Positions 24,471-64,000 of a DNA stretch of 64,000 bases are shown one piece after another (the stretch's first letter is position 1; every line of letters starts with the position of its first letter). Made by a program: the position numbers and the translations under genes. The notes below the pieces were generated by a model. It saw only the letters and a list, made by a program, of their open reading frames with translations. It searched no databases and had not been told where the DNA came from. This stretch comes from Botryococcus braunii (taxonomy: Eukaryota > Chlorophyta > Trebouxiophyceae): assembly GCA_002005505.1 (NCBI GenBank), contig MVGU01000945.1, positions 85,001 through 149,000 on the forward strand, in the 5' to 3' direction.

Positions 24471-25315
24471 TGGACGCGTTAATGTAAGCTTGGATCATGT
24501 TTATACGAACACGTGGGACTATGAGATAGACTCCTGGGGCATCTCACGTAGGTATACTGAATTGAGCTCAAATTTGTCTTGATGCAGCTCGTAGAGTGTG
24601 CCATGTGTGCTGCAGTATAGCGAGTATTCTCGCCAAAAGTCTAAGGGGTGATTATGCTGTAATGTTCAGCGCTGAAATCCGGTGAATCTCCCGCTCACCT
24701 TAGCACTTACAATACTTGGAACCAAAGCATGAGTTACAGATCTGTGGTCATGCTGTCATTATGCCTTAGTGACGACACGTTATGAGATAATTGTACCTTT
24801 CATACCAGCGCCGGGGCTGGAGGGCGATACGAGTGATCTCGTACTGGCTTCCGTGGGAAGCAGTACGAGATCACGCGTATCGCCCGACCAGCCCCAGAAT
24901 AGCTGTTGTGAAATATGCTTATTTGCCAGTCGGAGTGATATTGTGTGCACTTTTGTCGACCCACAGTCGACTTTGTAACATTGTAGATGTCAATTGTATC
25001 GATAAACGTCCATCTCACTACCATCACCTTTGGATCGTTGTGCGCATGGTGAGGCCTAATTTTGCTTGGACATAACGTTGTGTAGCTGGTTGCTCGGCAT
25101 TGATTGACTTTGTTATGCGCAACAGGAGTCCCAAAATGATCCATTTGCAGCAGTTTTTGACAGCTGTTTTGCCGGTGATGAGGCTACAGTGCGCCGTGTG
25201 TTTTTGAACTCATTCAGCCTTCGGCATTCTCCAAGTCCTGTCTGACGTTTAACGAACTTGTTGAAACATATACTCAGTCTCCTTAAGTCGCTGATCTCTG
25301 TCGTTTCCCTTGCAG

Positions 25316-26793
25316 ATGCTAAGTCAGCAGTCGGAAGTGGTTCCTGTGCAGGCTCCTGAGTCCGTTGTTCAGGTCAGATCGCTCCTGCTTCCTGTTCAGA
25401 CCTTTTCACAGGCAATCTGTCTGTACTTGTCATAAGTGCCTCTTACAGCTATTTCCCATAGTTTCTATCGAGGAGTTACTCGTCGTATTCCCGATCGATC
25501 AGATTGACCAAGGGACGGATGTTGTCGCTGACCTCCAACAGTAACGGGAATATCTAGCTAATATATTTTTCGTCTTTGTGCATGATTACAGCGATCATGT
25601 TCCCCTTCAACCGCTAAGAATGGAAGACGTAGTGGGATTTCAACAGGTCAAGATTCCAGGTGCTCGTCCCTGCCTAGCAGAGACTATGTGTCTTGGCTGT
25701 CAGATTTATGTGGACGTTTGATTATTAGTGCTTCATCTGAAAAATTGTTTCTTTCGTGATTCCTGATAATGACGTCCAAGCACAGGGCAATTTGAATGAC
25801 ATATACAGTGTTGGTTTGAAGGTCTAGTTACTTCGTTTCTTTGTCAGCAAAGGTTTCGCTGAAAGTCAGCATTTCGCTTGTCGTAGCTCGTGGACTTTCT
25901 GGCTAGGAATTTTCAATGGATTTTTTTATCCTTTCTTGCAGGAGCACGGTCTTCCGGTAGAAACTAACATGGCATCAACGATATCTGCTACTGTTCAACA
26001 TCCCTTGCAAGAAACGGTGAATTCTTTGTCTGACACCTCATGGTTGTTACTATTTCAATCTTATCAGTGTTCCACAGTGTTTCACGGAACATTCTGTTGC
26101 TCCTGACTTACATGTCCTGAATCTGCTTTTCAAGCAACTGAACCACAAGACCAACCTTTCCTGGGCGAGCCTTGGCCACCAGAGGAATGCTATGGAGTAT
26201 GTCCGTAATGCGTCTGTACAGTCACGGTGTATCATCTTCATTGATGTTATATGTCTGCTGAAATGCTGACTGGTCACGTTATATCATCTTCATTGATGTT
26301 ATATGTCCGGTTGAATGCTGACTGGGCTTACTTCTTGATAGGAGGACGGCTTTTTGCTGGACACCACATATGGAAGACTTGGTGCAGCAGTCAGAAGATG
26401 GGGTACAGAGACAGACAACACTGACGGCATCCTTGGCAATAAGAACACCTTGCGGAAAACCAAAGGTGATGTACGTATTTACCAATCCTGGCAGCAAGAT
26501 ACGCTTGGAGACGATACTCCACTGGAGAATTTATCTCGTGGTGTTATGACGGAAAGGTTGCAGACCTTTGTCATGCAGGTATGTTGCTGATCTAACAGTG
26601 TGAAACGTTCACATGTTTTTGTCCGTTGATTTGCCTGCAAATGTATAAAATTACTTCTAGGTTTTGTAGATCAGGCACTAGAACAAAAAATGGTGTGTAT
26701 ATGCGCTACAAAAGGAGTACCTTGCTGGCTATCGTTGGCTCCATCCAACGTTAGCTGTCGTGCCACATAGCCAGACAGTACCGTGACACCGGA
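25316..26793 (+). pseudogene. Left-arm copy of the foldback gene, frame-broken
   Basis: Has the same exon order as the right-arm gene: 25316-25372, 25592-25646, one from 25942, then one ending at donor CAG|GTATGT after 26354-26579, and a last exon ending at the conserved TGA near 26793. Exon 3 has one extra A, which brings TAA in frame; exon 4 has insertions giving an early TGA; exon 6 has indels. Exon 5 remains open and is three codons longer than its partner. Splice sites are kept. The damage is confined to this arm, so this is the decaying copy. Confidence 0.65.
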
Positions 26794-27096
26794 ACCCATC
26801 CTTTTGCTCCCACCAACGTCTATCAAGATGATGATTTTGGCCATTTTCGCGACAATCTCAATCAGCACCTCCGAATCATCACAGAAGAAGGAGCAGCCGC
26901 AATAAAGCACAGTAAAGTAATCTCTAGGTCTGATTTTGACCTTCCCTTGCTCTAAATCGAATCGCGCATGGCGCCAGAGTCCTCTTTGTCGTCCAAAACG
27001 TTTAGAGCAATCAAATATTTTCTAACTGGCCTATATTGCGCTGTCCGAGGCCATGATGGTCATGCCGGTCGGAAACTTTCCAGCTTCACTTCCGAA

Positions 27097-27132
27097 GTAT
27101 TACCGGATGACAGACCGGTCATCTCGTAATAC
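27097..27132. repeat. Centre of the giant palindrome
   Basis: 15-bp arms at 27097-27111 and 27118-27132 around loop AGACCG. This is the symmetry point of the roughly 4.4-kb inverted repeat. Confidence 0.85.
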
Positions 27133-27441
27133 ATCGGGAATGAAGCTGGAAAGTTTCAGACCGGCATGACCATCATGGCCTCTGACAGCCCAGTATAGGC
27201 CAGTTAGAAGATATTTGATTGCGCTGAAGTCGTTGGAAGACAAAGAGGACTCTTGGGCCATGCGCGATTCGATGTAGAGCAAGGAAAGGTCAAAAGCAGA
27301 CCTAGGGTTACTTTACTGTGCTTTATTGCGGCTGCTCCTTCTTCTGTGATGATTCGGAGGTGCTGATTGAGATTGTCGCGAAAATGGCCAAAATCATCAT
27401 CTTGATAGACGTTGGTGGGGACAAAAGGATGGGTTCCGGTG

Positions 27442-28864
27442 TCACGGTACTGTCTGGCTCTGTGGCACAACAGCCAACGTTGGATGGAGCCAACGATAGC
27501 CAGCAAGGAACTTTTGTAGCGCATATAGACACCATTTTTTTGCTTCTATTGCCTGACCTACAAAACCGATAAAAATAATTCTATACACTTGCAGGCGAAT
27601 CAACAGAGAAAAACATCTGAGCGTTTCACACTGTTAGATCAGCAACATACCTGCATGACAAAGGTCTGCAACCTTTCCGTCATAACACCACGAGATAAGT
27701 TCTCCAGTGGGGTATCGTCTCCAAGCGTATCTTGCTGCCAGGATTGGTAAATACGTACATCGCCTTTGGTTTTCCCCAAGGTGTTCTTATTGCCGTCAAT
27801 GTTGTCTGTCTCTGTACCCCATCTTTTGACTGCTGCACCAAGTCTTCGATATGTGGCGTCCAGCAAAGAGCCGTGTTCCTATCAAGAATAAAGCTTAGTC
27901 AGCATTCAACCATACATGTAACATCAATGAAGATTATATAACGTGACCAGTCAGCATTTCAGCAGACATATAACATCAATGAAGATGATACACCGTGACT
28001 GTACAGACGGATTGCGGGCATACTCCATAGCATTCCCGTTGTGGCCAAGGCTCGCCCAGCAAAGGTTGGTCTTGTGGTTCAGTTGCCTGAAAAGCAGATT
28101 CAGGATGTAAGTCAGGAGCAACGGAATGCCCCGTGGAACACTGATAAGGTTGAAATAGTGACAACCATGAGGTCTCAGACACAGGATTCACCGTTTCTTG
28201 CAGGGGATCTTGAACAGTAGCAGATATCATTGATGCCATGTTAGTTCTACCGGAAGACCGTGCTCCTGCAAGAAAGAATCCAAAAAAACCATTGAAAAAT
28301 TCCTAGCCAGGAAGTCCACGAGCTACGACAAGAGAAATGCTGACTTTCAGCGAAACCTTTGCTGACAATGAAACGGAGCAACTAGACATTCAGACCAACA
28401 CTGTATAGTCATTCAGGAATCCTAAAAGAAACAGTTATTCATATGAAGCACTGAGAATCAAACGTGCACATAAATGCGTCAGCCAAGACACATTGCCTCT
28501 GTTAAGGCAGGGACGAGCAGCTGGAATCTGACCTGTTGAAATCGGACTACGTTTTCGATTCTTAGCAGTTGAAGGGGAACGTGATTGCTGTAATCCTCCA
28601 TAAAGACGAAAAGTGTATCAGCTAAAGATCCCCCTTACTGTTGGAGGTCAGCGACGACATCCGTCGCTTGGTCAATCTGATCAATCGGGACTACAACGAG
28701 TAACTCCTCGATAGAAACAATGGGAAATAGTTGTAAGTGTCACTTATGACAACTACAGTCAGATTGCCTGTGAAAAGGTCTGAACATGAAAGCAGGAGGG
28801 ATCTGACCTGAACAACGGACTTAGGAGCTTGCACAGGAACCACTTCCGACTGGTGACTTAGCAT
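27442..28864 (-). CDS. Right-arm foldback gene, six exons, 213 residues, unknown function
   Basis: Exons 28864-28808, 28587-28533, 28265-28192, 28140-28024, 27878-27651 and 27552-27442 total 642 bp, with every phase closing (0, 1, 0, 0, 0). Donors are GTCAGA, GTCAGA, GTGAAT, GTATGC and GTATGT. The protein starts MLSHQSEVVPVQAP and has a basic patch (KNRKRSP). Exon 5 is the largest (DATYRRLGAAVKRWGTETDN, then QSWQQDTLGDDTPLENLSRG), and the last part is WCLYALQKFLAGYRWLHPTL, ending SQTVP. The last exon shows mainly third-position changes against the left-arm copy, and both arms keep the TGA. The first ATG directly follows an acceptor, so an upstream exon (for example near 28925-29033) is possible. 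No catalytic motif or known transposase signature is visible. Confidence 0.6.
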
Positions 28865-30364
28865 CTGCAAAGGAAACGACAGAGATCAGCGACTCAAGCA
28901 GACCGAGTGTATGTTTCACCAAGTTCGGTAACCGTCAGACAGAACTGGGAGAATGCTGAAGGCTGAATGGGTTCAAAATACAGGGCGCACTGTAGCCTCA
29001 TCACCGGCGAAACAGATGTCAAAAACTGCTGCAAATGGATCATTTTGTGACTCCTGTTGTGCATGACAAAGTCAATCAATGCCGAGAAACCAGCTACACA
29101 ACGTTATGTCCAAGCAGAATTAGGCCTCACCATGCGCACAACGATCCAAAGGTGATGGTAGTGAGATGGACATTTATCGATACAATTGACGTCTCAATGT
29201 TACAAAGTCGACTGTGAGCCAATAAAAGTGCACACAATATCACTCCGACTGGCAAATAAGCATTTTTCATAACAGTTATTCCGGGGCTGGTCGGGAGATA
29301 CGCTTGATCTCGTAACGCTGCCCTCGGGAACCCACTATGAACATCGCTTGCTTTTTCGTTAGCCACAGCTCTGCTAGCCGGTGCCAGCCTACTTGCTGGG
29401 TCCGCGGCTCGTGGTCCTCTTAGTCCACGCAGACCGCTGACCAGGGACGCTACATGGTGCAGGTGTGGGCCCTGACTTCGAACAACTTCATGTCATATCT
29501 TACACGACCCACCAAGATTGGTTTTTGCTGGTCTGACGGGCGAGTTGGTGCACTCTGCACATTCTGGCGTCTTCCGCACTGCAGAGCTACACCTCAAATA
29601 GCGCGCCCGCCTGTTTCTGCCCTTGTTTTGTGATAATTCATATTGAAAACATTTTTGGTTATCATTCTGGGTCTGCGGACGATGCGTATTCGAGGAGTCT
29701 CTGGGGAGCATCTGGGGTCCATTGGGGGATCCGGGCCCTGTTCACTCCATAATCACACACACTGATACAGGGTTCTAGGGGTTCGATCAACGGTGGATGC
29801 TTTGCATTGGTTGGCTTGTGTGTTTACCGGTTGCCTTCCATGATAATACATTTCCCAGAGACGACAGTAACCTTCATATGCCTCAGCCCAGCGGGCATTT
29901 CCCATGGACACCCCATTGAAGATATACCACCTTATCGTGTTTCTATGACCCAGCCACAACACAGCTTCTTGCATGCATGTACACGGGACCTTGTGGGGTC
30001 AGATGAGGGCCCCATCTGCTCCTAAGGGTCCTCCCAAACCTTCAGTGCCAGGTACGGCATTGTGACCAATAAACTTTAAACTTTAACACTTCGTTGTGCT
30101 GTGGAGGTTGTTTGTGTTGTGGGGGTTGTTAGCTCTTTAGACAGAGGGTTTGATATATTTCTGGGGGAAAGGGGTTTGGGGTGCGTAACCGTAGGTCTGG
30201 GCCCCTCGTGACCTGCTCTTTCTTGGTTTCCAGGGTCTTCTTTGTTAGTCATGCTATATACCGGGGGGGAGGGGAAATAGGTCACACCCACAGGGTCACA
30301 CTGCCGGGAGTGTCGGGGTGGGATTTTAGGGCTCTTGCCCCCATCTTCCTTTTTCCCATGGGAA

Positions 30365-33139: not shown

Positions 33140-33505
33140 TGTTGAGTTCTGAACATTATTATTGAATGCCTTGTGCTTTAAGTGATCTTCATGTGTGCAC
33201 TATTAGGATATGGGTCTATTGAGAACATAAGGTACCTTGAGACACGGCAGATTCTGGACGTTTTCGAACATAAGGTACAATCCTATCTAGATCACACGTT
33301 TGTCGGATGAACTCTTAAGGCTGCCCCACCGGAGTGAATACCAACTGGTTGTGAAAGATGCTGGGCATCACCAGATGCTAGTCTTGTCCGACAGTTGTGT
33401 GTGGCACTCAGCAGACAGTCGTACGGACTGTAGCTGGAGTAACTTCGTCTATTGACGACCTGTCTGCTTTGTACAGGGAAAGCCGATTGCCCATAACCTT
33501 TCACA
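33140..33505 (+). repeat. Element B 5' LTR (366 bp)
   Basis: Starts TGTTGAGTTCTG and ends CCTTTCACA. Contains two ATAAGGTAC motifs (33227 and 33270), the first within the perfect palindrome AAGGTACCTT. Confidence 0.95.
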
Positions 33506-33539
33506 GGTTATGGGCCCACGCCCTTCCAGCTGAGCCAAG
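33506..33539 (+). promoter_or_regulatory. Primer binding site, initiator tRNA-Met half-tRNA type
   Basis: GGTTATGGGCCCACG directly follows the LTR and is complementary to the initiator tRNA-Met anticodon stem-loop (GTGGGCCCATAACC), not to a tRNA 3' CCA end. The following CCCTTCCAGCTGAGCCAAG continues to resemble the complement of a tRNA D-arm. It is conserved in elements D and E. Confidence 0.8.
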
Positions 33540-39128: not shown

Positions 39129-39494
39129 TGTTGAGTTCTGAACATTATTATTGAATGCCTTGTGCTTTAAGTGATCTTCATGTGTGCACTATTAGGATAT
39201 GGGTCCATTGAGAACATAAGGTACCTTGAGACACGGCAGATTCTGGACGTTTTCGAACATAAGGTACAATCCTATCTAGATCACACGTTTGTCGGATGAA
39301 CTCTTAAGGCTGCCCCACCGGAGTGAATACCAACTGGTTGTGAAAGATGCTGGGCATCACCAGATGCTAGTCTTGTCCGACAGTTGTGTGTGGCACTCAG
39401 CAGACAGTCGTACGGACTGTAGCTGGAGTAACTTCGTCTATTGACGACCTGTCTGCTTTGTACAGGGAAAGCCGATTGCCCATAACCTTTCACA
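39129..39494 (+). repeat. Element B 3' LTR (366 bp)
   Basis: Same ends as the 5' LTR with a single mismatch noticed. Followed by the target duplication GATTA. Confidence 0.95.
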
Positions 39495-39499
39495 GATTA

Positions 39500-42304
39500 T
39501 CACAGAAAAGCTTGACAGTCTTCACTGTTACTCCAAGCTCTTCAAGCATACCTCCCATCCACATTACCTCCTTCACTGCTGCACTGGCAGGAACAAATTC
39601 AGCTTCCACTGTGGATGTGGCAACTGATGACTGCTTCTTGCTGCACCAAGACACAGCTGACCCATTCAGTAGAAAAATAAACCCTGTGGTTGATTTTCGT
39701 CCATCAAGGTCCCCAGCAAAATCTGCATCAACTATCCCACCAACTCATTGTCTCCCGAATTAGTATATGTGATGCCCATTTCTTTAGTGCAATTTAAGTA
39801 CCTCAGTACCCTTACTGCCCCATTCCAGTGTGCAGTCGTAGGCTGCCCCCTGAACCGACTCTGTACCCCCAGTGCCTGAGCTATATCAGGCCTTGTTGTG
39901 GTAGCAAGGTATTGTAGCGATCCAATAAGCTCAAGGTACCTGTGACCTTCTGGCAGTGGCATGCCAGCTCCTACCTGCTCACCAGCCCTTCCTAGTGGTG
40001 GCTCAGGATTCTGCGTAGAAACAAACCCATATGCCATTCGAGTATTGACTTCCTTCCCCTGTGCCGGCAGTCCAAACTCCTCCACCAGTCTCTCAATTTT
40101 CAACACATTGGTCATTTTGAGATTTCCAGTAGATTCATCCTTTCTAATTTCACATCCCAAAAATGCTTTTATCTCACCCAAATCATGGATTGAAAAGATG
40201 CTAGTGAGCTGTTGTTTCACACACTCAATAGCTTCACCTTCCTTACAAATAATTAACAGATCATCCACGTAAGTCAGCAGATAAACACGTGACTCATAGG
40301 ACTCCTTGTTAATGAACAAGGATGAATCGCTTTTGCAAGCCTTAAATCCAAACTTGTTCAGCTCTTCAACTAAACGCTTGTGCCAGGCACGTGGGGCCTG
40401 TTTCAAGCCATACAGTGACTTCAGGAGTTTACATACCTTACTGATATCACCATTGAAAAAGCGAGGAGGCTGAGAAACATAAACTTCCTCTTCTAGTGAT
40501 CCATTCAGAAAGGCAGTTTTAATATCTACCTGATGCACCTTCCATCCATTTGCGTTTGCCAAATTTAGAAGCACACGCCTGGAGGAGTGAGTGCTAACTG
40601 GAGCAAACGTCTCAAAATAGTCCACTCCTGGCCGTTGCTTGCATCCTTGAGCAACAAGTCTACCCTTGAACCTGACTACATCCCCAAAACCATCAGTTTT
40701 AATAGCATAAACCCACTTCAGTGGGATCACCTTTGCATGTGATGGCTTGTCACGATACTCAAAGGTTTCATGCGCTTCAATGGAGTCCATTTCCTCGTTC
40801 ATGGCCTCCAGCCAGTATACCCATTGGGGTGAATTCCTGGCTTCAAACCAATCGTTAGGAATCCTCACATCTCTAGATGCAATGTTGACTTTCTCTCTTG
40901 CTCCATTCTGCATGGGTGGTGTAACCTCTGTTGCGCCTAGTAATGGATTGTCCTTTACATGATAAGCGCCTGGAACATACTTATCTGGTTGAGCAAGTGT
41001 CTCTCTTAGATCATACCGACTTGTTCCACCCCTCACCCTTTCCTGCACATCATCATCATTGTCAGACTCATGTGATGAGTTATCGTTATCCGACTCTGAG
41101 CATGGATTATTCACACCCTCCTCTGGATGTTCCTGTCCAGTCCCAAAGCCCATTAACTCTTCCCCTGAGATGGCTGAGCCATGTGTCTCTCTGATCCCAC
41201 TCTCTTCCGCCTGAGCCTGTTCCCTCAGAACTTCGTTCAGTCTCTGCATAACTTCTAGGTTAGCTGGAAGGATTTGATCTACTCCCCTTCCAGCTTCCCT
41301 GTTCAACTCCAAGGCGTCAGCAATGTCAACCGGAATAAAATCCCAGTCATCCTCATCTGCAGCGCTTGGCACCTGATCACAATATACTTCACGTGGGAAG
41401 TCAGAGGGCAATTGGGTTTCAGTAGAGAGAGTGTGAATTTCCAATTTATCTTCGAAAAACTTAACATTTTTCGATACCTTGACCTTACTGCCAACCCTTA
41501 TCCTGTATGCCTTAGATGCTGGTTCATAACCCACGAACATGCCAGCCTCTGACCTAGGGGAGAAGGCAGACAAGTCTTTGTCTGGAATTTTGATGTACGC
41601 CAGACAGCCAAAGACCCTCAAATAATGCACAGAAGGTTTCCTGCCGAACAGTAGCTCATAAGGGGTGGCAGACTTCCCCTTAGTAGCTCAACGATTAAGT
41701 AGCCTGACAGCAGTAGGCAGTGCGTCGGTCCACATACTTTGTGGGGCCTTAGCTTGGAGCAGCAACATTCTAACCTTCTCCTTTAAGGATCTGTTAAAAC
41801 GCTCTGCCCTACCATTTTTTTGAGGTGTGTAGGGTGCAGACGTTTCATGTCTGGTGCCCTTTGACTGAAAAAACTCGTGTAAATCTGAGTTAACAAATTC
41901 AGTCCCCCTGTCAGTCCTAACCACCTTTACAGAGTGACCAGTTTGATTTTCTAAATATAGTAGGATTGCTTTAACAGCATCGCCCACCTGAGACTTGTAG
42001 CATAGAGCCCTTGCTTCACCAGCCTTAGAAAAATCATCCAGCACAGTGAGCATATACCTCTCCCCTTCTGGCCCCGGTACAGGAAGTTCACCAACAATAT
42101 CCATATGGACAAGCTGTAGGCGCTCTGTAGCCGTTGCAGGGGAACGCTGGTAGCTTTCTCTAGTCTGCTTACCCAAAACACACACCTCGCATAGTGAGTG
42201 ACCATGTGAGCAAGGAGATAAAGAGGTTTCAATCCCTTTAACCATATTTTCTGTCTGCAGTCGTTCCATGTTTTTACTTCCAGGATGTCCTAACCTTGCA
42301 TGAG
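39500..42304 (-). pseudogene. pol: Element A integrase, RT and RNase H (N-terminal part)
   Basis: Read on the minus strand from about 42304: THARLGHPGSKNMERLQ, integrase with VRTDRGTEF and APYTPQKNGRAERFNRS, a single in-frame stop at 41688-41690, then LRVFGCLAYIKIP, RT with FLNGSLEEEVYVSQPP and YVDDLLII, a frame break near 39740, and RNase H up to LFCDN at 39500. The frame continues beyond element B at 33139. It is inactive because of at least one stop, frameshifts and the B insertion. Confidence 0.85.
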
Positions 42305-46109: not shown

Positions 46110-46809
46110 TGTTGAGTTCTAAACATTATTACTGAATGCCTTGTGCTTTAAGTGATCTTCAGGTGTGTACTATTAGGATATGGGTCCATTGAGAACATAA
46201 GGTACCTTAAGACACGTTAGGTTGTGGACGATTTCGAACATAAGGTACAATCTAATCTAGATTACGCATTAGTGTGAAAGGACTCTTAAAGCTGCAATCA
46301 CCGCATAGTCGAGCAACTGGTTTGGAAAGATACTGGGCACATAAGGATGCCAGTCTTGTTCATGCAGTTGCATGTGTCTAAAGAGCAGACAGTCGTCGAG
46401 GACTGTAACTGGAGAGACACGAACTTACGGCCTGTCTGCTTGCTTACAGGTGCGGTGACGCAGGGTGTGTATTGGTAATGTGTTCATGTTTGATTGCTTG
46501 TTTGTAAGTGAACCATCTTAGTGTACAATCAAGTCTCCCAAACAGCTAAGGGACGGAGTCTTGATTGAGTATAGGAAGGTACTTGCTTTCAGCCGTCAGG
46601 AGCTTATCCGTGTGTAGATGCTCATTGACGGATCAACGTGTAACGGAACTGGTTTGGAAAGATACTGGGCACATAAGGATGCCAGTCTTGTTCATGCAGT
46701 TGCATGTGTCTAAAGAGCAGACAGTCGTCGAGGACTGTAGCTGGAGAGGCACGAACTTACGACCTGTCTGCTTGCTTACAGGATACGCCACTGGCCATAA
46801 CCTTTTAAA
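46110..46809 (+). repeat. Element D 5' LTR, long form (700 bp)
   Basis: Starts TGTTGAGTTCTAA. Contains a direct repeat of about 134 bp (46319-46452 and 46651-46784, offset 332) around a unique spacer of about 198 bp. It ends CCTTTTAAA, so the terminal CA is mutated. It matches 52189-52889 in inverted orientation. Confidence 0.9.
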
Positions 46810-46843
46810 GGTTATGGGCCCACGCCCTTCCAACTGAGCCAAG
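46810..46843 (+). promoter_or_regulatory. Element D primer binding site (initiator tRNA-Met half-tRNA type)
   Basis: GGTTATGGGCCCACGCC directly after the LTR, with CCTTCCAACTGAGCCAAG following; near-identical to element B. Confidence 0.8.
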
Positions 46844-47175
46844 GGCAGACATGAGTGCATGGCATCATGGGGATGCATCTGTACTAGGTTTGCCACGGAC
46901 TCGCCTGACGGCAAGAAGAAGTAAAAAGGAACAACTGGATATTCACTCAGAAGGCCTACCTACAGAGTCTTCAATCTCTTGGGAAGTTTTTTTTTCCGTG
47001 AAGTGACCTGAGATTATCACCCGTCGTCGATATCGTGAGACCGTCAGTATGTCCGGGTGGTCAGGCAATTGAATTGCTGAAGAATATTTTGCATATCTTG
47101 CATATTAAGGTTACATGCTAGACCTCGAAAGGGTGGAATACTTGAAAGTGCTGTGGTGTACGCCGGAAGGGTATG

Positions 47176-58484: not shown

Positions 58485-58518
58485 CTTGGCTCAGCTGGAA
58501 GGGCGTGGGCCCATAACC
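58485..58518 (-). promoter_or_regulatory. Element E primer binding site (initiator tRNA-Met half-tRNA type)
   Basis: Plus-strand CGTGGGCCCATAACC ends at the LTR border and is preceded by CTTGGCTCAGCTGGAAGGG, resembling the D-arm-to-anticodon half of a tRNA. Confidence 0.8.
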
Positions 58519-58886
58519 TGTAAAAGGTTATGGGCAATGGCGTATCCTGTAAGCAAGCAGACAGGTCGTAAGTTCGTGCCTCTTCAGCTACAGTCCTTGA
58601 CGACTGTCTGCTCTTTAGACACATGCAACTGCATTAACAAGACTGGCATCCTTATGTGCCCAGTATTTGTCCAAACCAGTTGCTCGACTATGCGGTGATC
58701 GCAGCTTTAATAGTCCTTTCACACTAACGCGTAATCTAGATCAGATTGTACCTTATGTTCGAAATCGTCCACAATCTAACGTGTCTCAAGGTACCTTATG
58801 TTCTCAATGGACCCATATCCTAATAGTGCACACCTGAAGATCACTTAAAGCACAAGGCATTCAATAATAATGTTCAGAACTCGACA
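58519..58886 (-). repeat. Element E 5' LTR, short form (368 bp)
   Basis: Plus-strand ends TGTAAAAGG and CTCGACA. Equals the long form minus one duplicated block and the spacer (about 332 bp). Confidence 0.9.
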
Positions 58887-59355
58887 GAAACATAGGGTCC
58901 CCCAGGGGGTGTGTTGTATAAACTAATAGGTACGTATAGATACGTGACGGCAAACGTACTTAGATACAAGGGCGCTATCAGTTTATCAAGTGGTTTTAGG
59001 AAACATTGTATAACTTGAACTTCTCCACGTGTGGAGTACAAGGAAGAAGATGCGCCTGAGTGCGTATCTAGGGTAATGTATGGTGATCAGTCAGGTTGAT
59101 CATATAGTGACCTCCATGCAGTACAGGTCTTTTACTAGTGACGGTGTGGTCACAAGGTAAAGATTCCATTGAGTGTGTACACGTGTATAAGTTTGGGATC
59201 CCTGGTGCAGCTGCAGAGCTACACGTTGGCATAGGGTCAAGTCAGGGTTGTTTATGTGGCCATGCAATACGGTACGGCTTCTCGAACGGGACTGTACCGT
59301 TACCGCCGGTTACGATCAGGAAGCATAGAAACGCCAGATCGCGAGCGAGCTTGGC
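58887..59355. other. No gene seen
   Basis: Unique AT-rich sequence next to element E. It may hold the upstream part of the transcript described at 59356-60054, since TTGGCAG before 59357 looks like a splice acceptor. Confidence 0.5.
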
Positions 59356-59842
59356 AGTCGATTGGATGTGGAATACATCTGGGTTGGAGCTCCAAGCTGA
59401 TAAGTGTTTGCTCTATATTGAATGACTGCTTGATAAACGGCTATATCACTCATTGCAATACAGGTAAGCTTGCGATTGATGGCAAGGGTAACAGTCGCAG
59501 CCGGGTGGCTGCGATCGCAGGGTTTAGGCGCATGGTTGCTATTATCATTGTTGATAATGAAGTAATACATGTGCTTGTGTTGCAGGAGTTGCATTGCTTG
59601 TTTGTTACTGTCGGAAGAACAGTAAGGCTATTTGTGTATTGAGAGTTACACACTGGTTAATAGCGGTGAGTACAGATACGCATAACAAGCATGCTCCTGC
59701 TGGTTGAATAACTGTTTTGTTAAGATCCCTAATGAAGCACGTATTGTGCAGATCGGTTGGGAGTAGCCGTCAAACTCCTGGGATTGCTGAGGGCCAAGGG
59801 CGCCCTGATAAGAGAGCAGTCGGTACGTACACATGTGGATAG

Positions 59843-59922
<80 letters not shown>

Positions 59923-60054
59923 ATGGTTTAGATATATTTAGAAGACACTGATGACCCACCAGTAAAAACGTAACGCTCGGGTTGCAGGCAGATATAGACG
60001 GCAGTGCGAGCACTGGTTTATACATACATTGATATTACTTGGTGGTGTTCACAG
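59356..60054 (+). ncRNA. Four-exon spliced transcript unit (inferred), apparently non-coding
   Basis: Exons 59356-59463, 59586-59665, 59752-59822 and 59988-60054 are inferred from the adjacent intronless copy. Introns are 59464-59585 (GTAAGC...TTGCAG), 59666-59751 (GTGAGT...GTGCAG) and 59823-59987 (GTACGT...TTGCAG); the last carries the (GT)n tract. A further donor GTAAAT follows exon 4. All frames have stops, so it is probably untranslated leader or non-coding RNA. It may be the leader of a host gene or of an element related to G. Confidence 0.65.
59848..59920. repeat. (GT)n microsatellite inside the third intron
   Basis: About 70 bp of GT; absent from the spliced copy. Confidence 0.95.
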
Positions 60055-60073
60055 GTAAATATACATAAACCAT

Positions 60074-60472
60074 TGTAATGAGTCGATTGGATGTGGAATA
60101 CATGTAGGTTCGAGCTCCAAGCTGATAAGTGTTTGCTCTGTATTGAATGACTGCTTGATAAACGGCTATCTCACTCATTGCAATACAGGAGTTGCATTGC
60201 TTGTTTGTTACTGTTGGAAGAACAGTAGGGCCATTTGTGTATTGATAGTTACACACTGGTTAATAGCGATCGGTTGGGAGTAGCCGTCAAACTCCTGGGA
60301 CTGCTGAGGGCCAAAGGCGCCCTGATAAGAGAGCAGTTGGCAGATATAGACGGCAGTGCGAGCACTGGTCTATATATCACATTGATATTACTTGGTGGTG
60401 TTCACAGGAAATGACACTCAGCATGCAAACGTACCGCTGACAGTTACGGCATCCTCCAACTAATACACAACA
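60074..60472 (+). mobile_element. Possible element G 5' LTR/leader containing the spliced copy
   Basis: 60081-60407 is a copy of the four exons at 59356-60054, about 95% identical, with all three introns missing at the exact GT-AG borders. The copy sits in a TG...CA interval (TGTAATGAG to ACACAACA), followed by GGTGCTGGGCCCACTGC, which shares TGGGCCCAC with the half-tRNA primer sites. The pre-gag frame starts 27 nt later. The LTR call needs the missing 3' LTR beyond the window. Confidence 0.4.
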
Positions 60473-60498
60473 AAGGTGCTGGGCCCACTGCTTGCTAC

Positions 60499-61479
60499 AT
60501 GCTAGAGGAGGAGGTCATAGTGATCGAAGACACACCAGAACCGGAAGAGCAACGGACACCAAGACCATTCACAACCACAAGAGGAAGAGGACTACGACCT
60601 GCACTACGTCAACAGCATCCGAGAAGACCAGAATATTCAGAGTATCCCATTCCTTTTGTCAGGGCTCACTTTGAAGTCCCGGACTATTTTGGAGACCCGG
60701 GTCTGTATATTCATATTGAGAGGCCAGGTGTTCCAAAAGGCCAGTTTCAGAGACCAATTGTACATCACAAAGACATTGTGCTGAACAACCTCCCTGATCC
60801 TTTTGAACGTGCAAATTATATCTTCATCAAAACTTGTGAAAGTGAGGAAGGGTCTGTCTTGTGTGGAGAGAATATTTCAACATGATTTTTGGCTGGACTT
60901 GCACAGCCACAAGAGGAGCCCATTTTGGTAAAGTGGGAGGAGTTGATTGTGTTCTGTGATCCTCTTGCTGATAGTCTGGTGGACGAAGTGGCAGGGCTAT
61001 ACGGGAGAAGTCTTCCGAAAGAAGACTGGGAGGTTTACTATTTTCTGAAAGTGTGGAACCGTTTGCAGGAACTATTTAGGTTAACTGCACACGGACCACT
61101 GGGAGGTATTCCTTCATTCTATCTCAACAGAGCAATTGTTGAGGGTAGGGAGGGATCAGGCCAGGTGTTCAGGTGGTACAGAGAATACCACGTGTATATT
61201 GAACTGGTACAGTTCCAGTTTCGTATACACCAAGGGCAGAGCAAGGCAGTATTTGACCGACTGCCATCATGGAAGGAGGTGGAGGAGCTGGGACTCAATC
61301 CGTTGCGACTGCATCCGGATTATTTCCAAACCCACGAGGGGATATCACGGGGGTTGCTGGAACCAGTGATGGGGTTGCAGCGACTAACATGGGAGGAGAT
61401 CCAGGAAATGGAGCAGCAGTGGCTAGGGGATCTGAACCAGCCATTACATCTGGCCAGGAAGATCCGACGAGTCCAGTAA
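60499..61479 (+). CDS. Element G pre-gag open frame, unknown function, one in-frame stop
   Basis: Starts MLEEEVIVIEDTPEPEEQ, an acidic segment, followed by a basic Arg-rich part (TRGRGLRPALRQQHPRRP). A globular-looking region follows (IPFVRAHFEVPDYFGDPG, then PIVHHKDIVLNNLPDPFERA). It is interrupted by a single TGA (60883-60885), then continues in the same frame (VKWEELIVFCDPLADSLVDE, WYREYHVYIELVQFQFRIHQ) to a stop at 61477-61479: 327 codons with one stop. It overlaps the gag start (61269) by about 210 bp in another frame. No family is recognised. The position matches the pre-gag frame of element A. Confidence 0.55.
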
Positions 61480-62160
61480 ATTCTAGCTTACAGGTCACCA
61501 CTCCCGTAGATAGATTGGGTTTGTCGTTAGACATCTGGAAGCAAAATGTGTTTCACTGTGCAGTTAGCCGTAATGTGCTGGAATGCTTAAAGACTTCCAT
61601 GCCAGGTACTAAAGGGGATGCAGTGGCACTACATTTGTTGCTGCAGAAGGTACCGGAAGTGTGGGCTCAGAAAGTGGCATTTGCTGAGTCTGCAGCAATT
61701 GCGTTTAAATGGATTATGAGCCAGTTTCAGGGAGGGGCAAACCTGGAAATCAATGATCAATGGCTGCAGTTGTTGGACAGTGAGGTAATGGGCAATGACA
61801 GCACTCAAGAAGAATATGTGTCAAGGAAGGAGCTGCTGGCAAAAAGGCTGAATGATAACAACATGCCAGTAACTCAAACAAAACTCAAGAAGTCAATTCT
61901 GAAATGCCTCCCGTGGCAGTTTGATGCCCACAGGCCCAGTCTACCGTCCTCCACTGCCACTTGCAATGTCACTCAAACATTGGCGGCAATAAGGGTGGTT
62001 GCAGAAACCATAGGCGTTAATAAAGAACAACCGAGGGCTCCAAGGGCGGCGGTCGTCCGCAAGCCGGGTCCAGCTGCCACGCAGGATAATCGGACGTGTT
62101 TTTGAGTGTGGTGAGAAGGGACACATTAGAGTGAACTGCCCAAAGCTTGTGCGCCCATCA
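61269..62160 (+). pseudogene. gag: Element G Gag
   Basis: Starts MEGGGGAGTQSVATASG and has a Gly/Ala-rich N-terminus. The Gag core includes LDIWKQNVFHCAVSRNVLEC, LHLLLQKVPEVWAQKVAF and FKWIMSQFQGGANLEINDQW. The frame ends at 62105 because of one extra T in 62099-62103; the knuckle CFECGEKGHIRVNC follows in the shifted frame. Confidence 0.8.
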
Positions 62161-63900
62161 AACCGAGGTAATTCACTCACTGGAGAAGAGGTAAATCCTA
62201 GGGCTGGGATGGCATCAGCAAAATTACAAAACACGGGGGAAGGCCAATGGATAGTAGACACGGTAGCTACTAACCATATATGCAATGACTTGCATCTGAT
62301 GTCCAATGTTGTTGTGTACGATGAGGCTAAACCACTGGGTCTAGCAGCAAGTGATGGTCAGGCATTGAGAAAGGCACAGGGAAATGTGTGTCTGTCTGTG
62401 CAAGGTGGGGGAAGTGTGTTGCTGACGCAAGTAGAATACGTGCCGACAGCAACTGATAACCTTTTGTCAGTGTCAGCTGCCGTCAAGGACGGCTGCACGT
62501 TTGCTGTAAATGACAAGGGGGAGTATGTAGCTGTCATGTGCCAGGCCAATGAGTTTGTGTGTGATATTGAACCAAAGGGAAGTTTGTACTTCTTGTCGCA
62601 TAAGAATGGGCTCTGCCCGTGGGGAGGGGCGGCAACACGTTTAGTTACTACACGAGAAGAGACCGAGCTGTGGCATAAACGGTTGGGACATCCAGGAATT
62701 GTGTGTATGTCGAGATTGATGAAAGAGCAGATTGTCAATGATGTGAAAGGAAGTGTGAGTGAGGTTGAGAGAGTTGTGACTCACTGTGATGGGTGTATTC
62801 GGGGGAAGCAGATTAGGACGCCCACACCTCCCTCCACTGCAGCTGAGTCTACGGAGAGACTTCAGCTGGTCCATATGGACGTAGTGGGAGAGCTGCCAGT
62901 GGCTGGGCTGAATGGAGAGAAGTATATGCTGGTCCTTTTGGACGACTTCTCGCATAGAATGCAAATAAGAACCTTCAGTTCAAAGACTGAGGTAGGGGCA
63001 CTTGTTCAAGAAGTTGAATTGGGAGGTGTCAACTAAGTGCAAAGTTGGCACTGTTAGGACGGACAGAGGTACTGAATTTGTGAACCGTGAGCTGGCAGAT
63101 TTCTTTGCCCGGAAAGGGATCACACATCAAACCTCTGCTCCTTACACACCCCAACAGAATGGGAAGGTAGAGAGAGTAAACATGGTAATCAAGGAGCGAG
63201 TGAAGGCCCTCCTTTTTACAGCAGAGGCATGGCCTGAACTCTGGGCTGAGGCAGCTCACACTGTGGTACGGCTGCTAAATTTAAGTGCTGTCAGTGGCAA
63301 AGAGTCTTGTCCATATGAGGCATTCTATGGCAGAAAACCCTCAGTTGCTCACTTGAAAGTATGGGGTTGTCTGGCGTATGTGAGCTGCCTGATAGGCAAC
63401 TGTCAGCACTAGGTCCTCGCTCGGCTGCGGGCATGTTCATAGGGTACGAGACAGGATCCAAGGCGTATCAGATCCTGGTGCAAGGTAAGGTGATGGTTAG
63501 CAAAGATGTTAGGTTCATTGAGGATGAGTTGGGTTACCCCGTTGTAACTCCACCTTCTCCACAGCCTGAGGTGAGGGTTGAGGAGTTGTTTCATGATGAA
63601 GAGGAGGTTTCTGATGAATCCCTGGAGAGCAATCGACGCCCCTCGTGATATTGCGATGGATCCGGAATTACGAGCGGGCGATCTGCACGAAGTCATGAGG
63701 CGTGCACGGGAGGTGCTGCAGCAGCTTCCTGCGGAACTACCAGCTGGGGAAGTGACTGATGAGGAAATTGATGATGAGGGAAATGGGGATGATGAGAGTC
63801 AAGGGCAGGCAGGTGACAGAAATGAGGAACAACATGAGAATGAAGAAGGTGAAGAGAGGGGAGAGGTGGTGGGCGTTACGAATTGAGAGAGAGAGTTGGC
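62161..63900 (+). pseudogene. pol: Element G protease and integrase
   Basis: A degenerate protease region reads GQWIVDTVATNHICND: D-T-V replaces the usual D-S-G, so the active-site triad is altered. Then WHKRLGHPGIVCMSRL, HCDGCIRGKQ, HMDVVGELPVAG, a frame break near 63030, VRTDRGTEFVN and PYTPQQNGKVERVN, another break near 63390, SAAGMFIGYETGSKAYQ, and an acidic linker (VTDEEIDDEGNGDDESQ) ending at 63884-63886. RT is not reached. Confidence 0.8.
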
Positions 63901-64000
63901 CCAACAGATAAGTATGTTCAGGTGCATATCACACGCAAGTGAAGGCTCATGCAGTAGTAGTTGATGAGGCAAAATTGAAGGCGTCAGAGTTGTCCATTCC

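Follow-up and report, generated by a model that had tools for sequence, protein, structure and literature searches.

An intron-bearing leader and its spliced copy in the LTRs of a Botryococcus braunii copia family: evidence that the copy is rewritten from the leader

The long terminal repeats (LTRs) of a copia-type retrotransposon family in Botryococcus braunii carry the same leader twice, first as a unit interrupted by three introns (unit A) and then as its spliced copy (unit B). In our reading, to which we give a probability of roughly 0.86, U3 archives the intron-bearing A and B is rewritten as R-U5 from the spliced leader in each cycle. The family is an LTR retrotransposon with a proposed replication step that is not described in the literature searched. 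The window analyzed here is a 64,000-nucleotide stretch of DNA (G000:C230:85001-149000), and the assembly searched comprises 176 Mb. Among marker genes of the host, RuBisCO gave no match; one beta-tubulin exon matched best, within the PDB, the Chlamydomonas entry 6u42, whereas a second exon of the tubulin family matched none.

The element in the window has LTRs ending in TGTTG..CAACA and is flanked by GGGTG on both sides, as seen by comparison with a partner LTR about 6.8 kb downstream. This partner (C230:150714-152260) lies outside the window, is 95.5% identical to the 5' LTR and has the same A and B layout; the sequence-only reading had proposed looking for such a 3' LTR to the right of position 64000. 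A polypurine run, AAAAGGGGAAGA, was present just 5' of the 3' LTR, and GGTGCTGGGCCCA, a candidate primer-binding site, was found directly 3' of the 5' LTR. The complement of 60473-60491 may resemble the anticodon arm of initiator tRNA-Met, which would fit half-tRNA priming as in copia. Half-tRNA priming is mentioned for copia in part of an earlier report (PMC5371799). One of three pieces of the internal region searched contained Pol beta-barrel and GAG-pre-integrase domains (62014-63033; PF22936 and PF13976 above the cut-off); the reverse transcriptase is situated outside the window. Judging from the sequence, transcription would start at 59356, the first base of unit A.

Features of the window element and of the second copia family (window coordinates)
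Feature	Position	Strand	Basis or remark
Second copia family, LTR start	46110..46850	+	exon / GT..TGTAA gap / exon layout
Second family, A exon	46315-46449	+	without internal introns
Second family, gap, GTGCGG..TGTAACGG	46450-46646	+	GT start, TGTAA adjoining second exon
Second family, B exon, ends ACAG, then U5	46647-46781	+	sequence
Second family, further copy	52889-52188	-	same layout
Left target-site duplication, GGGTG	58907..58911	+	identical five bases after the 3' LTR, beyond the window
Complete 5' LTR, 1561 bp, TGTTGTAT...ATACACAACA	58912..60472	+	alignment with partner LTR
Promoter part of U3	58912..59355	+	sequence; 5' of unit A
CATAGAAA, putative TATA-like element	59324-59331	+	25-32 nt 5' of the putative start site
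Unit A, intron-bearing leader	59356..60054	+	exons 59356-59463, 59586-59665, 59752-59822, 59988-60054
Intron 1	59464..59585	+	GTAAGC..TTGCAG; GT..AG in 62/64 LTRs
Intron 2	59666..59751	+	GTGAGT..GTGCAG; GT..AG in 63/64 LTRs
Intron 3	59823..59987	+	GTACGT..TTGCAG; GT..AG in 64/64 LTRs
Putative intron 4, gap plus whole unit B	60055..60407	+	GT donor (two bases after A) in 61/64 LTRs, AG acceptor (end of B) in 61/64 LTRs
TGTAA, putative poly(A) signal, immediately 5' of B	60074..60078	+	64/64 LTRs
Variable junction TGTAA/B, putative U3/R border and first-strand transfer site	60079..60080	+	between-element comparison
Unit B, spliced copy of A	60081..60407	+	first ~12-14 nt putative R, remainder putative U5
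End of U5	60408..60472	+	LTR comparison
Putative primer-binding site	60473..60491	+	sequence 3' of the LTR
Copia internal region, reading frames interrupted	60473..64000	+	domain search

In the window, the right copy equals the left copy minus three blocks, with exon blocks 95% to 97% identical and a distance of 26 bp between the units. The GT...AG borders and coordinates of these blocks, an exon identity of about 95% and the same spacing had been reported by the sequence-only reading, and all were reproduced. Its description of the unit as leading into a copia element had to be corrected, because both units sit within the 5' LTR and not ahead of the element. Between A and B of the window element, 1 of 308 compared sites differed in both LTRs. 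Intron 3 of the window copy holds a (GT)n run. Downstream of A, a fourth GT..AG interval comprises the gap and the entire right copy. This interval thus reads as a fourth intron; splicing it out would fuse A with the last part of U5, and the product would match B-U5 in sequence.

For the family survey, the 327-bp spliced unit was searched against the genome, yielding 210 candidate places, of which 40 were scored and all 40 sequences were examined. A full intron-bearing unit lay just upstream of the spliced unit in 37 of the 40 scored places, far beyond chance. Together with 38 further places, these gave 78 LTR loci, while two other stretches (L053 and L054) gave no LTR match. Both units were complete in 64 of the 78 loci, with a gap of about 26 bp containing TGTAA between them. 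In six loci with a full B, A was partial or its exon 1 was unrecognized (L032, L045, L057, L070, L072, and L087), and in five A was absent (L048 to L052). B was cut in two (L082, which enters N, and L084 in C63, which breaks inside exon 2 into unrelated sequence), and one locus (L086) had a single unit retaining intron 1 only. None of the 75 full-length B units, 309 to 346 bases long, contained an intron. Matching 5-bp flanks were recognized by eye in 14 of 19 LTR pairs, with L081/L080 doubtful and no match shown for L060/L059, L083/L082, L070/L069, and L058/L057. When the genome was searched with U3 fused to the spliced leader (40 scored of 219 candidates), no LTR with a spliced A followed by the gap and B was found; the five full matches to this junction all lacked A. 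The 64 LTRs with both units complete were grouped into 48 elements, namely, 14 pairs, one tandem group of three, and 33 single LTRs.

In L066 (C419), the end of B is duplicated in tandem over 99 bp; the first of the two copies ends in CACAG and runs straight into GGCCAAGGG. In C735:2900-17400, three near-identical LTRs (L025 to L027) lie about 5.7 kb apart in one orientation and are alike outside the LTR too, forming a tandem element array.

The survey bore directly on the explanations offered earlier for the two copies. As anticipated, many elements hold the spliced form inside the LTR, and derivation of the right copy via spliced RNA was upheld by family comparisons in which B is rewritten from spliced A. 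Capture of a spliced leader by the element was the nearest of the earlier proposals, but a single capture does not suffice, as the rewriting is repeated and the evidence points to each transposition. An older element beside a reinserted spliced copy is at odds with the presence of both units within one LTR, at each end of the element, and with a single target duplication. Late gain of three introns by the left copy conflicts with introns at identical places in all 64 LTRs with a full A. The tandem position, previously considered unusual for a retrocopy, is to be expected when B is repeatedly rewritten from the adjoining A. Two further candidates were rejected: blocks arising by chance or as independently inserted repeats, since the positions are the same in the 64 LTRs with a full A, and a processed retrocopy of a host transcript, since B occupies a constant LTR site, continues into U5 and has no poly(A) tail in the loci read.

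In the cycle that we propose, U3 would comprise the promoter, A with its introns and the gap with TGTAA; R would run from the first base of B, and U5 would consist of the remaining part of B and a further 65 nt. Transcripts of the 5' LTR would begin at A, and removal of introns 1 to 3 and of intron 4 would yield an RNA that starts with spliced A fused to the end of U5. Removal of intron 4 would also strip the poly(A) signal from the RNA 5' end. RNA from the 3' LTR would be cleaved about 14 nt past TGTAA, just within B, so that the last bases of the RNA would be the same as its first bases. According to part of one report (PMC3439250), TGTAA serves as the principal poly(A) signal in Chlamydomonas and lies a mean of 14 nt before the poly(A) site. 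If the host uses TGTAA likewise, as is assumed here, this spacing puts the end of the RNA within the opening bases of B. Starting at the primer site, reverse transcription would copy the spliced leader into strong-stop DNA, which would then pair with the last bases of the RNA and be extended through the gap and the unspliced A into U3. The resulting LTR would have the order U3-A(introns)-gap-B, with B freshly copied from spliced A. Thus, because the unspliced A is archived in U3, the introns would persist although copying through RNA normally erases them.

This model requires a spliced 5' leader yet an unspliced A at the RNA 3' end, for which promoter-proximal splicing, cleavage before splicing and the use of two different RNAs are possible solutions. 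Copying of a fully unspliced RNA would yield either ordinary inheritance of B or one extra A. The former is contradicted by the concerted and vertical site counts given below, and a second A unit in one LTR was not found among the loci read. We lean toward the view that reverse transcription in this family depends on splicing, with the intron-bearing leader kept in U3 and a proper LTR made only from RNA with a spliced leader.

The junction just before B varies. In 48 elements, the spacer of 1 to 2 bases between TGTAA and B was CG in 25, TG in 7, G in 6, CC in 5, C in 3, and CT and TC in 1 each. This junction word, with its seven types, differs between near-identical elements and is constant within all 15 groups with several LTRs. 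Column entropy was unsuited to junction variability because it is dominated by subfamily splits, and the number of changes along a tree was used in its place. The tree comprised 31 close relatives and was built from upstream sequence, without support values. On it the junction word changed 10 times and its two columns 3 and 5 times, whereas none of the 1151 upstream columns changed more than 4 times. Three U5 columns changed 8, 6, and 5 times on the same tree and are at least as changeable as the junction columns, so the junction is not set apart by frequent change by itself. The changeable U5 columns fit U3-A and B-U5 being newly joined. The border before A is stable (CTTGGC in 42 of 47 elements). 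G was the last junction base in 38 of 48 elements, as would be expected from copying of the cap. With MMLV-type enzymes on capped RNA, the first extra base is nearly always C, as stated in part of a published study (PMC6885630).

The state of A and B at insertion was examined in 14 LTR pairs by setting A-B differences against the divergence of the remaining LTR parts. In 13 of them, 58 A-B differences were seen and 64.1 were expected from LTR age. One of the 13, L060/L059 (C41:396300-406500), has LTRs 7 kb apart and similarity that continues upstream of the LTR, which may reflect a tandem array or two elements. As it is therefore unconfirmed as one insertion, it was dropped in a second count, giving 52 differences seen and 61.6 expected. 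The rank correlation between A-B and LTR divergence was only 0.49 (P = 0.078; n = 14), most values being near zero. The exception was L014/L013, with 13 A-B differences seen and 0.8 expected, six of them fixed in both LTRs. Its 3' LTR carries the same B sequence as L038, which indicates a leader taken from the RNA of another lineage. Overall, these comparisons indicate that B equalled spliced A at insertion in 13 of the 14 pairs.

The same pairs bear on a variant in which the spliced donor is a separate subgenomic mRNA, whose strong-stop DNA is transferred to the 3' end of another RNA molecule, the unspliced genomic one. Such a route would remove the problem of the unspliced 3' A; L014/L013 illustrates that a B from another lineage is possible, and the U3-A tree is contradicted by several U5 columns, with up to 8 changes. 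Against it, B fits its own element's A within age in 13 of 14 pairs, so that donor and acceptor usually belong to one lineage. This objection is weak, because RNAs of one element or of close relatives are indistinguishable. We regard the two-RNA route as possible, if rather unlikely.

DNA gene conversion, within or between elements, would also homogenize A and B, whose exons are direct repeats 0.7 kb apart, and conversion between such repeats is common. However, conversion would continue after insertion, whereas in both of the oldest pairs the divergence of A from B tracks that between the LTRs (C230, 21 differences seen and 24.1 expected; C516, 23 seen and 18.3 expected), and neither pair combines diverged LTRs with identical A and B. 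Conversion would also have to act exon by exon without ever moving an intron into any of the 75 B units, and it leaves the variable junction exactly at the start of B unexplained. We therefore consider it very improbable as the source of the pattern.

Rewriting of B from A was also evident in the descent of the two units. In a tree of A and B with 77 rows, A and B did not form separate clades; the label changed 23 times, and at least 12 of these changes are forced by well-supported branches. Among the 1128 pairs of the 48 elements, 22011 pair-sites were concerted, 14 vertical and 11 crossed (counts that are mutually nonindependent), falling in 108, 10, and 7 alignment columns, respectively. 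A site was scored as concerted where A and B of one element agreed with each other and differed from both units of the second element, and as vertical where A matched A and B matched B but the two units differed. The direction was equally clear in the subsets. The 31 young elements alone gave 1376 concerted, 2 vertical, and 0 crossed sites, and the other 17 gave 3628, 5, and 6. As the vertical count is about the same as the crossed count, changes confined to B are hardly ever common to several elements. The mean distance between an element's own A and B was 0.0089, compared with 0.070 when partners were shuffled; the smallest mean in 2000 shuffles was 0.048. However, in 11 of the 48 elements, a foreign B was nearer to A than the element's own B. 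On these counts, B has no separate line of descent, and a conventional, vertically inherited R-U5 was not what we found. One ancient retro-event that made B, after which A and B were inherited as ordinary LTR parts (with R from A to just inside B in unspliced RNA), would need only standard LTR copying and would keep the introns without a special step, but it predicts separate A and B lineages and is already refuted by the concerted pattern, the 23 label changes and, for 13 of 14 pairs, the identity of A and B when the element inserted, unless another process homogenizes A and B at every insertion.

The LTRs lacking A were found in C365, in both LTRs of a C48 element (target duplication, CCTCC) and in both LTRs of a C598 element (ACCTC), the latter with LTRs 19 kb apart and the base adjoining the unit start missing. 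L086 (C49:123000-125600) is a solo LTR with GTATG on both sides and without a primer site, in which introns 2 and 3 are absent. The LTRs lacking A and L086 fit a strong-stop DNA that paired with A instead of B. They were not counted as evidence, because DNA recombination between A and B gives the same products.

A second copia family, abundant in the genome, has a comparable layout. Its second exon directly followed the first in 39 of 40 scored places (947 candidates), the fortieth being a remnant of about 49 nt. All 10 copies compared (8 from the genome and 2 in the window) had ACAG/GTGCGG after exon 1 and TGTAA adjoining exon 2, and ACAG at the end of the second exon was retained in 8 of the 10. 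The layout thus occurs in at least two of the copia families in this genome, the second being assigned by layout alone, and may represent an LTR type widespread in algae.

Other features of the window were recorded as well. Related copia LTRs of two further elements apparently have a single unit and no A (33140-33511, 39129-39500, and, on the minus strand, 58886-58513); these single-unit LTRs adjoin family members holding both units. Beside the second-family U5, GGTTATGGGCCCACGCCCTTCC, preceded by an inverted CCATAACCTTTTA, occurs at about 46790-46830 and, on the minus strand, at about 58500-58550. GGGCCCATRACCY has 1837 occurrences in the genome compared with 4 for the reversed pattern and is thus a repeated motif, perhaps tRNA-Met-like. 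Finally, self-comparison revealed a 4.5-kb inverted repeat at 24839-29340, with 89% identity to its own reverse complement over 4570 aligned bases.

An element that replicates via spliced RNA should lose its introns. The family points to a simple route around this loss, in which the introns are kept in U3 and the spliced leader is rewritten as R-U5 in every cycle. If this is true, each insertion naturally records the 5' end of a single RNA, including its start site, cap copy and splice junctions, and start sites, splicing and strand transfer can be read from genome sequence alone. The proposed cycle would also explain how early cleavage in the 5' LTR is avoided by an element whose start site lies upstream of its poly(A) signal.

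We know of no described copia LTR with an intron-bearing leader beside its spliced copy, and this arrangement was not found in the full-text literature searched, which covers few subscription journals. The family shares with Ty1/copia the TG..CA LTR ends, the 5-bp target duplication, a polypurine run and copia-type Pol domains; it differs in that R and U5 appear to be rewritten from exons stored in U3. In foamy viruses, no duplicated spliced leader unit is known, and a single R is inherited in the usual way. Common to these viruses and the copia family is a splice donor inside the LTR near the RNA start, which in the foamy virus lies in R (part of PMC3185757). Penelope-like elements likewise retain their introns when they transpose and carry terminal units in repeated form, and their intron retention is discussed, in the portion of the source used here (PMC3846280), as a result of antisense or unspliced templates. 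They belong to another polymerase class, marked by a telomerase-like reverse transcriptase with a GIY-YIG endonuclease. In the present family, the RNA-derived copy is the spliced one, and it is U3 that preserves the introns. Ogre and EVADE are plant LTR elements with working introns, in which alternative splicing gives subgenomic RNAs (part of PMC12786077); here, in contrast, it is the leader inside the LTR that contains the introns, and its spliced form appears to be copied back into the LTR. An experimental parallel is the Ty element with an inserted marker intron of 1985, in which intron loss in new copies proved the RNA intermediate (same source, in part). The family described here would be a natural record of the same process, except that its introns are not lost from the lineage but kept in U3.
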